DNA from: Acidobacteriota bacterium | GTDB lineage: Bacteria; Acidobacteriota; Vicinamibacteria; Vicinamibacterales; CAVVIG01 | DNA length: 33,198 bases | NCBI GenBank assembly: GCA_023265155.1 | Contig: JAHFUL010000008.1 | Location: 10,514-43,711 of the forward strand | Direction: 5' to 3' | Shown here: positions 1,779 through 29,284 of the stretch, in pieces | Position numbering within the stretch: position 1 is the first letter of the stretch | Layout: every line of letters begins with the position of its first letter | Translations under genes and position numbers: made by a program | Notes under the pieces: model-generated | The model's database searches: none | Told to the model about the DNA's origin: nothing | Seen by the model: the letters and a program-made list of their open reading frames with translations, nothing else

Positions 1779-3224
1779 CTAGACGGGCCGCGCAATCAAG
1801 TCGTAGTCGCGCGACCCGACGATTTCGGCCGCAATAAACCCCCCAATCGGCAAGCTCGCCGGGTCGCAATCGGTCAGGTACACGCAGGCGTCGATGTCGG
1901 GGGCCTGCGTTGCGAGCCGCCCCTTCAGGACGAGCTCAGACTCGCTGGCCGGGCCGTCGATCACCACTCGGGTCCGTTCCCCGACCCGCGCGCGCTGCCG
2001 CCGCCGGGCGATTCGCTTCTGAAGGCCCATCACGCGGTTTCGGCGGGCGGTCTTGGTCCGCGCCGACACGTCGTCGGTCAGGTCGTGCGCCGAGGTGCCC
2101 TCCTCATGCGAGTAGGTGAACACCCCGAGATGGTCGAATGTCTGCTCCCGGACGAAATCGCACAACTGAGCGACGTCCGCTTCGGTTTCCCCTGGGAACC
2201 CCACGATGAACGTCGTCCTGAGCGCCACGCCGGGCACCCGGGCACGGATGCGCGAAAGCAGCCGATCGTAGTTCTGGCGCGTGCCCGGCCGCTTCATCCG
2301 CTTCAGCACGGGGTTCGACGCGTGCTGCAGCGGCAAGTCGATGTACTTGCACACCTTGTCGCACTCAGCCATCGCCGCCATTGTGACGTCGTCAATGGTG
2401 GTCGGGTAGAGGTAGAGGAGACGAATCCATTCGAGGCCTTCAACGGCATTCAACTCGCGGAGCAGTCTGGCCAGCGCGCCGCGCTCGTGCCGGTCGATGC
2501 CGTAGAACGTCGTGTCCTGCGAGATGAGGAGCAGCTCCTTCACGCCCCGCGCGGCGAGGGCGCAGGCTTCACGCACGATCGATTCGGCCGGCCGGCTGCG
2601 ATAGTTGCCCCGCAGCGTGGGGATGATGCAGAACGCGCACTTGTAGTCACACCCTTCGGCGATCTTGATGTACGCGTAATGCCGCGGTGTGGCCAGCATC
2701 CGCGGTGTGTCGGCGTCGTAGATGTATGTCGGCAGGGATCGGGGAGTCGCGCGTGGCGATTCGCGCCCGGCGACCGGGTAGGCTCGAGTAGGCCCGAGCT
2801 TTAGCTCGGGCGCCTCAGGGCATGCTCGATAGAAGTTGAGCGGCAGGGTTCCCGGCATTCCGGACATTTTCGACAGCGCCGCTCCGCCAATGGCTCTGAC
2901 AATCTCGGGGACCTCGCCGGTGCCCAGGACGGCGTCAATCTCGGGAATCTCGGTGCGCAGCTCCTCGCGATATCGCTCGGCCAGACAACCGGTGACGACC
3001 AGCCGCCGGCAACTCCCGCCTTTCTTGTGCCGGGCCATCTCCAGAATGGCGTCGATCGATTCCTTCTTCGCCGAGTCGATGAATGCGCAGGTGTTGACGA
3101 CGAGCACATCGGCGTCCGCGGGATCCCTCGTCAGCTCGTGGCCCGCGCTTTGGGCAAGACCCAGCATCACCTCGGAGTCGACGAGGTTCTTGGGGCAGCC
3201 GAGGGAAATCAGTCCTATTTTCAT
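1779..3224 (-). CDS. rimO: Ribosomal protein S12 methylthiotransferase RimO, with a repeat-derived in-frame insertion
   Basis: RimO is a radical-SAM enzyme with two Fe-S clusters that methylthiolates an aspartate of ribosomal protein S12. The 481-residue product opens MKIGLISLGCPKNLVDSEVM. Cluster cysteines are C10, C46 and C80 in the N-terminal UPF0004 domain and C192, C196 and C199 in the radical-SAM motif GCDYKCAFC. A TRAM domain follows from about residue 410. The family pattern is clear, but residues about 119-163, between the N-terminal domain and the conserved LPTYIYDADTPRMLATPRHY segment, form a poorly conserved stretch longer than usual. It contains APELKLGPTR (138-147), encoded by a palindromic repeat found again at 27148-27222. 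Both cofactor motifs are intact, so the enzyme is probably active. The ATG at 3224 has no strong Shine-Dalgarno sequence. Confidence 0.95.
   Translation of the reverse strand: MKIGLISLGCPKNLVDSEVMLGLAQSAGHELTRDPADADVLVVNTCAFIDSAKKESIDAILEMARHKKGGSCRRLVVTGCLAERYREELRTEIPEIDAVLGTGEVPEIVRAIGGAALSKMSGMPGTLPLNFYRACPEAPELKLGPTRAYPVAGRESPRATPRSLPTYIYDADTPRMLATPRHYAYIKIAEGCDYKCAFCIIPTLRGNYRSRPAESIVREACALAARGVKELLLISQDTTFYGIDRHERGALARLLRELNAVEGLEWIRLLYLYPTTIDDVTMAAMAECDKVCKYIDLPLQHASNPVLKRMKRPGTRQNYDRLLSRIRARVPGVALRTTFIVGFPGETEADVAQLCDFVREQTFDHLGVFTYSHEEGTSAHDLTDDVSARTKTARRNRVMGLQKRIARRRQRARVGERTRVVIDGPASESELVLKGRLATQAPDIDACVYLTDCDPASLPIGGFIAAEIVGSRDYDLIARPV
2788..2813 (-). repeat. GC-rich palindromic element inside rimO
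   Basis: The core is GTAGG followed by stem arms GCCCGAGCT (2792-2800) and AGCTCGGGC (2803-2811) around a two-base centre. It matches the two copies at 27148-27222 over 26 bases with one mismatch in the loop. Read on the minus strand in the rimO frame it encodes APELKLGPTR with no stop. Of the three frames in this orientation, one of the other two would hit TGA, so an open frame is used. Confidence 0.85.
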
Positions 3225-26256: not shown

Positions 26257-27111
26257 ATGGCGCGAGTGGCGTTCATCGGAACAGGGTTGCTCGGAAGCGG
26301 GATGGTCGAGGCGATGTGCGGCCGGGGCGATACGGTCACCGTCTGGAATCGGACGGCGAACAAGGCACGGGCGCTCGAAGCGTTTGGCGCGACCGTCGCA
26401 CTGACGCCGGAGGAAGCGGTTCGGTCCGCCGAGCGTGTGCACCTGGCGCTTCCCGATGATCCCATCGTCGATGCGATGCTCGAGCGGATCGCGCCGCGGC
26501 TCGCCGCCGACGCCGTGGTGATCGATCACACGACCACAGCGCCGGCAGCCACGAGCACACGCGTGGTGAACGCCGCGCGACGGGGCGTCAGGTTCGTGCA
26601 CGCTCCGGTGTTCATGTCGCCGCAGATGTGCCGCGACGCCGCCGGCCTCATGGTCGTCGCCGGGCCGAAGGCCGTGTTCGACCTGGTGCGCCCGTCGCTC
26701 GAGAAGATGACGGGCGAGGTCTGGTACGTCGGCGAACGCCCCGATCTGGCGGCGGCCTACAAGATTTTTGGAAACGCACTGCTGTTCGTCATCACGGCGG
26801 GCATCGCCGACGTCCTGGCGATGGCGAAGAGTGTCGGCGTGCCGCCGCAGGATGCCGCTGGTCTCTTCTCGAAGTTCAAGGTCGGCAGCGTCGTCGCGGC
26901 CCGCGCCGAGAAGATCGCGAGGGGCGACTTCGCCGCGACCTTCGAGTTGACGATGGCGCGGAAGGACATCCGCCTGATGATCGAGGCTGCGGGACAAGAG
27001 CCCCTGGCCGTGCTGCCGGCGATCGCGAAGCGGATGGACGAGGCGATCGCCAACGGACACGGCAAGGACGACCTGGGCGCCATGGCCGCACAGAGCGTCA
27101 GTCCTCGGTGA
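26257..27111 (+). CDS. NAD(P)-dependent 6-phosphogluconate/3-hydroxyisobutyrate dehydrogenase-like oxidoreductase
   Basis: The 284-residue product opens MARVAFIGTGLLGSGMVEAM, a Rossmann NAD(P) motif (GxGxxG), followed by TVWNRTANKARAL, which suggests NADP preference by the NRT after the second strand. The catalytic area has the Lys of AAYKIFGNALL (K169) and N173, as in beta-hydroxyacid dehydrogenases (KLxxN). Helix-rich C-terminal domain follows to ...GAMAAQSVSPR. Substrate is unknown: short-chain hydroxyacids such as succinic semialdehyde, glyoxylate or 3-hydroxyisobutyrate are options. ATG 26257 lies at the onset of homology; the 41-codon extension upstream is unlikely. It follows glpF on the same strand and might be co-expressed. 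Confidence 0.9.
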   Translation: MARVAFIGTGLLGSGMVEAMCGRGDTVTVWNRTANKARALEAFGATVALTPEEAVRSAERVHLALPDDPIVDAMLERIAPRLAADAVVIDHTTTAPAATSTRVVNAARRGVRFVHAPVFMSPQMCRDAAGLMVVAGPKAVFDLVRPSLEKMTGEVWYVGERPDLAAAYKIFGNALLFVITAGIADVLAMAKSVGVPPQDAAGLFSKFKVGSVVAARAEKIARGDFAATFELTMARKDIRLMIEAAGQEPLAVLPAIAKRMDEAIANGHGKDDLGAMAAQSVSPR

Positions 27112-27147
27112 TTGTTCGTCGTGCGTGAGTCGCAACCGCGTAGTCGC

Positions 27148-27180
27148 AACCTCGTAGGCCCGAGCTTCAGCTCGGGCGCT
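27148..27180. repeat. GC-rich palindromic element, copy 1
   Basis: The copy has stem arms GCCCGAGCT (27158-27166) and AGCTCGGGC (27169-27177). It is identical over 33 bases to copy 2 and matches the rimO element with one loop difference. Minus-strand translation gives APELKLGPTR. It lies just past the 6PGDH-like gene, in the 333-base gap to the DUF4159 genes, which otherwise holds only copy 2 and the DUF4159 remnant. Confidence 0.92.
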
Positions 27181-27189
27181 GGCTTCAGC

Positions 27190-27222
27190 AACCTCGTAGG
27201 CCCGAGCTTCAGCTCGGGCGCT
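27190..27222. repeat. GC-rich palindromic element, copy 2
   Basis: Second copy, same orientation, 42 bases after copy 1. Its minus-strand frame is continuous with copy 1 and with the DUF4159 remnant that ends immediately upstream at 27232. The junction ...GYAI then DASAPELKLG shows it lies where the end of the DUF4159 gene should be. Confidence 0.92.
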
Positions 27223-27231
27223 GATGCGTCA

Positions 27232-27444
27232 ATCGCGTAGCCGCGCGGAGAGCAGAGATCGAAGCAACTCCCGCAGGTACTCGTTTCCCGCTCCCAGGTA
27301 TCCGCGATGTCGGTGTTGTGCGTCATCAGCACCACCAGGCGACCCTGCTGATTCTGCACCCCACGGAAATGGACCTGCCGGCTGTCGTAGCCGCGCTCGG
27401 ATGTCACGCCCGGGTTCTGGCGCCATCTCTGGATCGGTGGGTCA
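27232..27444 (-). pseudogene. Truncated remnant of a third DUF4159 gene (C-terminal fragment)
   Basis: Minus-strand translation reads PPIQRWRQNPGVTSERGYDS, then RQVHFRGVQNQQGRLVVLM, THNTDIADTWER and ...SPRGYAI, matching the C-termini of the two downstream-listed DUF4159 proteins (GATSERGFDSAEVHFRG, THNTDISDTWEREG, SPRGYAIGVNVILY). The N-terminal ~230 residues are absent: homology starts within a few bases of the stop of the neighbouring copy (27445), in a different frame from it. The last 11 residues (GVNVILYAMSH equivalent) are replaced by palindromic repeats. A GTG at 27407 could start a short product but none is expected. Confidence 0.85.
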
Positions 27445-28359
27445 TCAGTGACTCATGGCGTACAGGATGACGTTGACGCCGATCGCGTAGCCGCGTGGTG
27501 AGAAGAGATCGAAGTACGCCTTCGGCTCTTCGCCCTCCCGTTCCCAGGTGTCAGAAATGTCGGTGTTGTGCGTGATCAGCACCATGATCCGGCCGTGCGA
27601 ATCCAGGATGCCGCGGAAGTGTACCTCCGCGCTGTCGAAACCGCGCTCCGATGTCGCACCGCCATTACTTCTCCAAAAGCTGATCGCCGGCACTTGCGGG
27701 ATCTCGGTGACCTGATAGAGCGTGTGCATGATCGCATGGGTGACGGGGATATCGATGATGGGATACTCGCGGGGCGGAAGCACGCGACTGATTTCGGACG
27801 CCCAGTTTTCCCACGCCGCCGAGCCCCAGAAGTCGTCCACCCACAGAAAGCCGCCCTTGAGGAGAAACTCCCGAAGCGGCTTCAGTTCGTCGTCTTCGAA
27901 CCGGAGCGATTGCACAGCCTCCATGAAGAGGATGGGGCACCGGTACAACAACGGATCGGTGAGGGAAACGACCGCGTAGTTGGGCAGGCGGTTCTCGTCG
28001 AACCGGACCTTCACGCGCGTCAGTTCTGCGAGGCGAACGGAGAAGTTGTTGTCGGCGCCTGGATAATCAGTCCGCCAGCTGCCGCCCCCCCCGCCACCGC
28101 CACCGCCGCCGCGCCTGCCGCGTCCCCCTCGGAAGCCAAATCCGTTGCCTCCGCCAAAGCCGTTGGTGTAGTACGCGCGGCAGTAAACGAACGAGCCATC
28201 GAAATCGGCCAGCGTCGCCCATTTCGGCGGCACGTTTCCTTCCCCTCGGAGGAAATTGGTGCCGACCCAGATCTGCTGTGCGTAGACGCCGCCTGCGGCA
28301 AGCAGGAGGACGGCGAGCACCGTCGGGAGGCGTCGACGCGGGCTCTGCAGGGCATTCAT
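27445..28359 (-). CDS. Secreted DUF4159-domain protein, copy A
   Basis: The 304-residue product has a signal peptide (RLPTVLAVLLLAAGGVYA) and the DUF4159 domain: PPKWATLADFDGSFVYCRAY, DYPGADNNFSVRLAELTRV, the central FLLKGGFLWVDDFWGSAAW, and C-terminal THNTDISDTWEREG and SPRGYAIGVNVILYAMSH. The family has an amidotransferase-like alpha/beta fold of unknown function. Between YYTNGFGGG and the SWRTDY block lies a Gly/Arg-rich tract with a run of ten glycines, absent from copy B. It starts one base after the copy B stop (TGA-G-ATG), so the two are coupled. About half of the sequence is shared with copy B. Confidence 0.88.
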   Translation of the reverse strand: MNALQSPRRRLPTVLAVLLLAAGGVYAQQIWVGTNFLRGEGNVPPKWATLADFDGSFVYCRAYYTNGFGGGNGFGFRGGRGRRGGGGGGGGGGSWRTDYPGADNNFSVRLAELTRVKVRFDENRLPNYAVVSLTDPLLYRCPILFMEAVQSLRFEDDELKPLREFLLKGGFLWVDDFWGSAAWENWASEISRVLPPREYPIIDIPVTHAIMHTLYQVTEIPQVPAISFWRSNGGATSERGFDSAEVHFRGILDSHGRIMVLITHNTDISDTWEREGEEPKAYFDLFSPRGYAIGVNVILYAMSH

Positions 28360-28360
28360 C

Positions 28361-29224
28361 TCAATGGCTCATCGTATAGAGAATGACATTCACGCCGATG
28401 GCATAGCCCCGTGGAGAGAAGAGCTCGAAGTAGTCCTGATTCTCGCCTTCACGCTCCCACGTGTCGGAAATATCGGTGTTGTGCGACATCAGCACCATCA
28501 GGCGCTGGTGATCATCCTGAATCCCGCGGAAGTGGACCTCGGCGCTGTCGGCGTAGCGCTCCGACGTGCCGCCGCCGGTCTGCCGCCAGTGCCCGATGTT
28601 CGGGACCTGGGGGATGCCCTTGACGTCGTACAGCGTGTGCATGATGGCGTGCGTCATGGGCACGTCGAAGATCGGAAACTCGCCGGACGGCAGGACGCGG
28701 TTGATCTGCTTGACCCAGTTGTCCCAGGCGTACGAGCCCCAGAAGTCGTCGACCCAGAGAAAACCGCCCTTCAGAAGGAAGGCGTGCAGCTGATTCACTT
28801 CCTCTTCACTGAAGTTCGCCGTCCCCACATCTTCCATGAACAGCATGGGGCAGTGGAACAAGAGCGGATCGTTCAAACCGACGACGACGTAGTTGGGCAG
28901 ACGATTCTCATCGAGCTTGACGTGCACCCGGGTGAGCTCGGCGAGCCGCACGGAGAAGTTGTTGTCCGATCCTGGGTAGTCAGTGCTCCACCCCGACCCG
29001 CCGGCCTCCTGGTACCAGCTGGTGTAGTACGCCCGGCAATACACAAACGAACCGTCGAAATCAGAGGGGGTCGCCCATTTGGGGGGCACGCCTCGACCGG
29101 TCCGGCCGCCGCCGCGTCCGCCAACCCAGATCTGCGCGGATACGAGCGACGCCGCCGCCAGCACGGCGACAAACGCCAGTGCCATCAGGCGAGAGGTGGA
29201 TCGCACGCCGGCGGAACGGGTCAT
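28361..29224 (-). CDS. Secreted DUF4159-domain protein, copy B
   Basis: The 287-residue product parallels copy A: signal peptide (RLMALAFVAVLAAASLVSA), PPKWATPSDFDGSFVYCRAYY, DYPGSDNNFSVRLAELTRVH, FLLKGGFLWVDDFWGSYAW, GTSERYADSAEVHFRG, SHNTDISDTWEREG and SPRGYAIGVNVILYTMSH. Start ATG 29224 matches the signal peptide; the frame's earlier TTG at 29260 adds a polar lead and is less likely. It is a tandem duplicate of copy A, with the zinc-ribbon gene 60 bases upstream on the same strand. Function is unknown; DUF4159 genes are often near MoxR/DUF58 clusters, but none is in this window. Confidence 0.88.
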   Translation of the reverse strand: MTRSAGVRSTSRLMALAFVAVLAAASLVSAQIWVGGRGGGRTGRGVPPKWATPSDFDGSFVYCRAYYTSWYQEAGGSGWSTDYPGSDNNFSVRLAELTRVHVKLDENRLPNYVVVGLNDPLLFHCPMLFMEDVGTANFSEEEVNQLHAFLLKGGFLWVDDFWGSYAWDNWVKQINRVLPSGEFPIFDVPMTHAIMHTLYDVKGIPQVPNIGHWRQTGGGTSERYADSAEVHFRGIQDDHQRLMVLMSHNTDISDTWEREGENQDYFELFSPRGYAIGVNVILYTMSH

Positions 29225-29284
29225 CGAGTTGATCTTCCATCCGAAGCCGGGGGCAAGCAAGCAATATGTGGGGATGGACGTCTG

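Follow-up and report, generated by a model that had tools for sequence, protein, structure and literature searches.

Organization of the DUF4159 locus

The window, meaning the whole stretch of 33,198 nt that was analysed, carries two intact DUF4159 genes, copies A and B, which run convergent to a dehydrogenase gene. Copy A and the dehydrogenase are separated by a third, incomplete piece of a DUF4159 gene and by two copies of a palindrome. The features are listed below, together with a further copy of the palindrome elsewhere in the window.

26257–27111, plus strand: NAD-binding dehydrogenase (HIBADH / 6-phosphogluconate dehydrogenase-like, PF03446), convergent, used as synteny anchor
27128–27153, plus strand: flank of REP copy 1, near-perfect 14-nt tandem AGTCGCAACCGCGT / AGTCGCAACCTCGT (repeat family D16)
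27154–27177, plus strand: copy 1 of the palindrome, classed by sequence as GTAG-tagged REP, GTAG GCCCGAGC TTCA GCTCGGGC
27178–27195, plus strand: spacer GCTGGCTTCAGCAACCTC between the two REPs (direct reading and comparison with half-element arrays)
27196–27219, plus strand: REP copy 2, identical to copy 1 and in the same orientation
27231–27443, minus strand: probable remnant of a third DUF4159 gene, reading DPPIQRW...SPRGYAI (translated and aligned to 22 intact copies)
27445–28356, minus strand: copy A, intact DUF4159 gene (PF13709, E 2.7e-33)
28361–29260, minus strand: copy B, intact DUF4159 gene (PF13709, E 1.4e-33)
2788–2811, plus strand: third REP of the window, with a TTTA loop, inside rimO (1779–3224, minus strand), reading APELKLGPTR in frame

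Seen from the DUF4159 fragment, the stop of the dehydrogenase at 27111 lies beyond the pair of palindromes. The flank of REP copy 1 contains a lone GTAG at 27140–27143. CAACCTC is terminal in this flank as well as in the spacer, which also contains GCTTCAG, a motif similar to the loop part of the REP.

A truncated third DUF4159 copy

The fragment is an open stretch of 71 codons (DPPIQRWRQNPGVTSERG...SPRGYAI, 27443–27231 on the minus strand) and, as the original prediction had stated, starts 2 nt from the stop codon of copy A (27445–27447) in a different frame. It matches the C-terminus of the DUF4159 proteins (PF13709); copies A and B are complete representatives of this family, whereas about three quarters of the protein are absent from the fragment. 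The start and about 220 N-terminal codons are lacking, and what remains of the domain is its final third, from which the 11 terminal residues (GVNVILYAMSH) are missing. Since the 5’ part is gone the fragment cannot have been functional in its present form and is presumably a pseudogene. The earlier view, that the locus captures an element in the act of invading the end of a coding region, is thus a possibility rather than a demonstrated event. A frameshift inside the fragment, suspected from the reading TSTCGSC versus GEEPKAY, was discarded because the DNA alignment revealed no change in length compared to copy A.

The reading frame of the fragment indeed continues through the palindromes as DASAPELKLGPTR...APELKLGPTR. 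The last residues had been described as replaced by the first base of a palindrome. Their absence is confirmed, but fragment and palindrome do not abut: weak DUF4159 homology extends past GYAI to about position 27226 and the nucleotides 27220–27225 belong to neither part.

In several members of the family one to three DUF4159 genes are found in tandem beside the dehydrogenase and/or aquaporin-glpK, and the gene order DUF4159(1-3)-[dehydrogenase]-aquaporin-glpK is conserved in family members. Three full tandem copies exist in genome G010, and an intact copy is located directly before the dehydrogenase in G006, G019 and G021. The fragment itself occurs in none of the family genomes examined. In G006 and G021, both belonging to other genera, the corresponding intergenic region comprises about 110 nt and contains no such palindrome.

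The fragment had been regarded as a partial duplication of copy A. It is a third DUF4159 piece, but its best match is the G021 copy (66% identity), which is intact and adjoins the same dehydrogenase gene in the syntenic place; identity amounts to 62% with copy A and 61% with copy B, compared to 74% between A and B over the same columns. The fragment is equally distant from copy A and from the intact copies of other genera. In the tree it groups with the dehydrogenase-adjacent copies (support 78/72), and pairing with A (p 0.34) or with B (p 0.57) was not rejected by tree tests. A recent duplication of copy A was considered; the identities weigh against it and the tree is compatible with a pairing to A. 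Since the best match is the dehydrogenase-adjacent copy of G021 and three full copies exist in G010, sequence comparison favors a relic of an older third paralog over a partial duplicate of A, as a preferred rather than a proven reading.

Identity of the palindromes as GTAG-tagged REP elements

The two identical palindromes have a length of 24 nt and lie inside a 36-nt direct repeat with a period of 42 nt. Chance alone would give 0 occurrences of the core palindrome in the window. Each copy folds into a hairpin with an 8-bp stem and a 4-nt loop at −10.3 kcal/mol (z about −3.2). GTAG-tagged REPs carry an unpaired GTAG at one end of a palindrome of 20–40 bp and have a stem of 6–13 bp with a short loop. 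Both properties were found here and, judged by sequence and predicted fold, the palindromes are GTAG-tagged REP elements. Both copies share the frame of the fragment, as predicted, which is a consequence of the 42-nt period. Four of the six frames through the REP are free of stop codons as read from the sequence, so that together with the period no selection need be assumed.

The source genome is a 2.5-Mb draft of 114 contigs and 66.5% completeness. Allowing up to 3 mismatches we detected the REP at 201 places dispersed over many contigs, compared to 0 for a reversed-pattern control; at up to 2 mismatches 160 matches remained. None of the 26 other genomes of the family contained a match at up to 2 mismatches. 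One exact copy was present in the genome collection, in the Acidobacteria draft SCUN01000322, and none in phage contigs. The palindromes are thus repeated, as had been claimed, with about 200 near-copies in their own genome, and apparently mobile.

Of 115 sites, 104 have a TTNA loop, and one variable stem pair co-varies over the same number of sites (G-C in 79, C-G in 31, mismatched in 5). Immediately before GTAG, 87% of 135 sites have a C, and immediately after the stem 97% have a G; beyond these two bases the flanks are unrelated.

Most REPs of the genome are located between genes, often near gene ends. Clusters with both neighbors called (n = 37) lie mostly between unidirectional (23) or convergent (8) genes and less often between divergent ones (6), in a non-random sample of stretches around REPs with home-made, codon-based gene calls. 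Head-head dimers are present at two loci (L006 and L115) and absent from the DUF4159 locus, where the copies are arranged head-to-tail and do not constitute a REPIN, that is two inverted REPs acting as a unit. At L115 (C31:78300-79300) at least five tandem units of 94 nt were observed, each an inverted pair of the stem variants GACC/GGTC and GAGC/GCTC. Two further loci (L021, L030) carry another type of palindrome, GTAGCGCAGGACTT(T)CAGTCCTGC, so that this genome may harbor a second family of GTAG REPs.

Probable mobilization of the REP elements

No match to PF01797 or NF047646, and hence no REP-associated tyrosine transposase (RAYT, HuH/Y1 family), was found in the 66.5% complete draft. In three genomes of the same family or order (G024, G025 and G036) a GTAG palindrome stands on either side of the RAYT gene; these hairpins are of similar build and of other sequence than the REP described here. 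Matches to NF047646 were above the cut-off at L077 and L087 and partial at L082. A target duplication of at least 3 nt adjoined none of 31 single REPs (0.97 expected by re-pairing), in agreement with RAYT-mobilized REPs, which lack target-site duplications, and none adjoined the ends of the array. HuH/Y1-type events are expected to leave no target duplication, so that the check for one proposed earlier could not decide about an insertion.

In GTAG end, perfect 8-bp stem and 4-nt loop the REP agrees with the GTAG-tagged REPs described by Di Nocera et al. 2013 (PMC3733652). High copy number, restriction to a lineage and occasional intragenic location are also shared, as is the occurrence as single elements, dimers and tandem arrays; arrays carrying flanking DNA have been described for these elements. 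Here the host lineage is apparently acidobacterial, and the comparison with these elements, for which 24 family consensuses exist, covers their architecture. The group-3 REPtron of Marinomonas Mb (Corneloup et al. 2021, PMC8266576) likewise has a perfect palindrome and a TTNA loop in which the third base alone varies, TTNA being the measured loop requirement of group-3 TnpA_REP. In contrast to Mb, with a 5-bp stem and a 2-base gap, the 8-bp stem directly follows GTAG here, and no cognate transposase was found in the draft genome. By analogy with these systems we infer that the REP was probably mobilized by a RAYT in the source organism.

REP elements inside genes

In the sampled loci 13 of 64 REP clusters lie inside predicted genes, one of them weakly predicted; the sample is non-random and the codon-based calls are home-made. 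Inside the window this concerns rimO (TIGR01125, E 3e-150), where the REP at 2788–2811 reads APELKLGPTR and falls in the linker that precedes the radical-SAM domain. Length and sequence of this linker vary among the aligned relatives. For an M1 aminopeptidase, the loop at the REP position is shorter in most of 18 relatives, and for an acyl-CoA synthetase the insert is largely missing from five relatives. Intragenic copies are read in each of the four open frames, giving the peptides VGPSFSSG, PELKLGPT, RRPELQLGR and ARAxARAY. The REP has apparently taken up in-frame positions in conserved genes, rimO among them.

Further predicted genes bearing a REP include a GFO/IDH/MocA oxidoreductase, an M23 peptidase, a sulphur transporter, the M1 aminopeptidase and apparently the acyl-CoA synthetase; in-frame REPs were noted in predicted genes at 11 further loci. 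At L148, around position 714–737, a loop of a predicted acyl-CoA synthetase apparently contains an in-frame expansion (VGPSVGPSVGPIVGPIVGPSFSSG) of a 12-nt quarter-element, GTAGGCCCGAGC.

Small palindromes inside genes are known from the Rickettsia palindromic elements (RPE) and the REPs of Opitutus terrae (PMC3733652), and in both cases they are read in frame as they are here. Sequence and lineage are different, and tandem arrays with expansions of quarter- and half-elements are found in the present genome.

Half-element arrays

Several arrays consist of the left half of the element, that is GTAG, arm and loop, followed by a second copy of the 7–12 nucleotides that precede GTAG; a complete palindrome closes the run. 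Such runs were seen at L141, L142, L153, L119, L117, L116, L115/L008 and L006. The sampled loci contain 14 left-only and 3 right-only half-elements. Simple pattern counts over the whole genome gave 172 left and 183 right halves and hence no asymmetry, the pattern for the right half being so short that it picks up other sequence as well.

The sequence pattern suggests, short of proof, a hairpin-guided step in array growth: synthesis or strand transfer would halt at the apex, after GTAG, left arm and loop, and jump back to a point 7–12 nt upstream of GTAG. We put this slippage forward tentatively and consider it rather unlikely to be the actual mechanism. If true, it would produce runs of half-elements with re-copied flank, and where the unit length fits it would lengthen proteins in frame. 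The array of the DUF4159 locus would then be a worn example.

Origin of the junction

The explanation that accounts best for the junction, with a probability of about 0.72, is that the tail of a dead third DUF4159 gene lies next to an array of GTAG-tagged REPs. We infer the following order of events. In the locus or its ancestor, a run of DUF4159 genes would have stood beside the dehydrogenase. The copy nearest to the dehydrogenase would have lost its start and the first ~220 codons, leaving a non-functional tail, and a short head-to-tail array of the lineage-specific GTAG REP would sit in or beside this dead 3’ end. The REP would be a non-autonomous hairpin whose single-stranded form is cut and rejoined by a RAYT (HuH/Y1) without target duplication. 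Local tandem duplications, taking flanking DNA with them, would subsequently enlarge the arrays. As a possible side effect the hairpins may terminate transcription between the convergent genes. Against this explanation stand the 66.5% complete draft genome, in which no RAYT was found, and a tree that is compatible with the fragment being sister to A or B. The same DUF4159 fragment without the palindrome was found in none of 27 genomes of the family, and dating of the events is precluded as no close relative exists. A 7-nt sequence, CGCGTAG, occurs at 27137–27143 and at 27234–27240 (shuffle p about 0.015), away from the edges of the palindromes.

Possible, and in our estimate somewhat unlikely, is a different order in which the REP array was already present between the genes and was brought up against the remains of a dying third gene by a subsequent deletion. 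The mostly intergenic position of the REPs fits such a course, as does the fact that decaying DNA gathers deletions and that the other end of the fragment has already suffered a large one. The right end bears no direct trace of a deletion, however, and other orders are as likely.

We regard it as doubtful that the fragment is a partial tandem duplicate of A whose last codons were replaced by a palindromic element inserted in the coding end, even though the fragment lies directly behind A, a REP is found where the last 11 codons belong and the tree does not reject the pairing. The identities given above, the absence of a start and an N-terminal part, the six nucleotides belonging to neither side and the single REPs without target duplication all argue against it. 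The original prediction thus described a real feature whose outline it had right, and the insertion mechanism that it put forward is possible rather than demonstrated.

An intrinsic bidirectional terminator instead of mobile repeats would suit the convergent position and the stable 8-bp hairpin; with some 200 near-identical copies of fixed edges, among them intragenic copies and multi-unit arrays, and no T-run following either hairpin, it is very improbable. Slightly less credible still is a mis-assembly of the fragmented, metagenome-derived draft with its N runs in some REP arrays, since the junction is internal to an N-free contig and the sequences to its left and right are parts of one conserved gene neighborhood.

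Significance of the locus

The junction is a case of ordinary genome decay beside a common repeat, a two-unit REP array next to the tail of a dead third DUF4159 gene. Elements of this kind are already known and so are intragenic REPs in other organisms; the case of this lineage is a new addition. With a REP amplified to about 200 copies and apparently established in frame in conserved genes, another lineage would take its place beside Rickettsia and Opitutus. The half-element arrays could show how REP arrays grow, a process that is still poorly understood.
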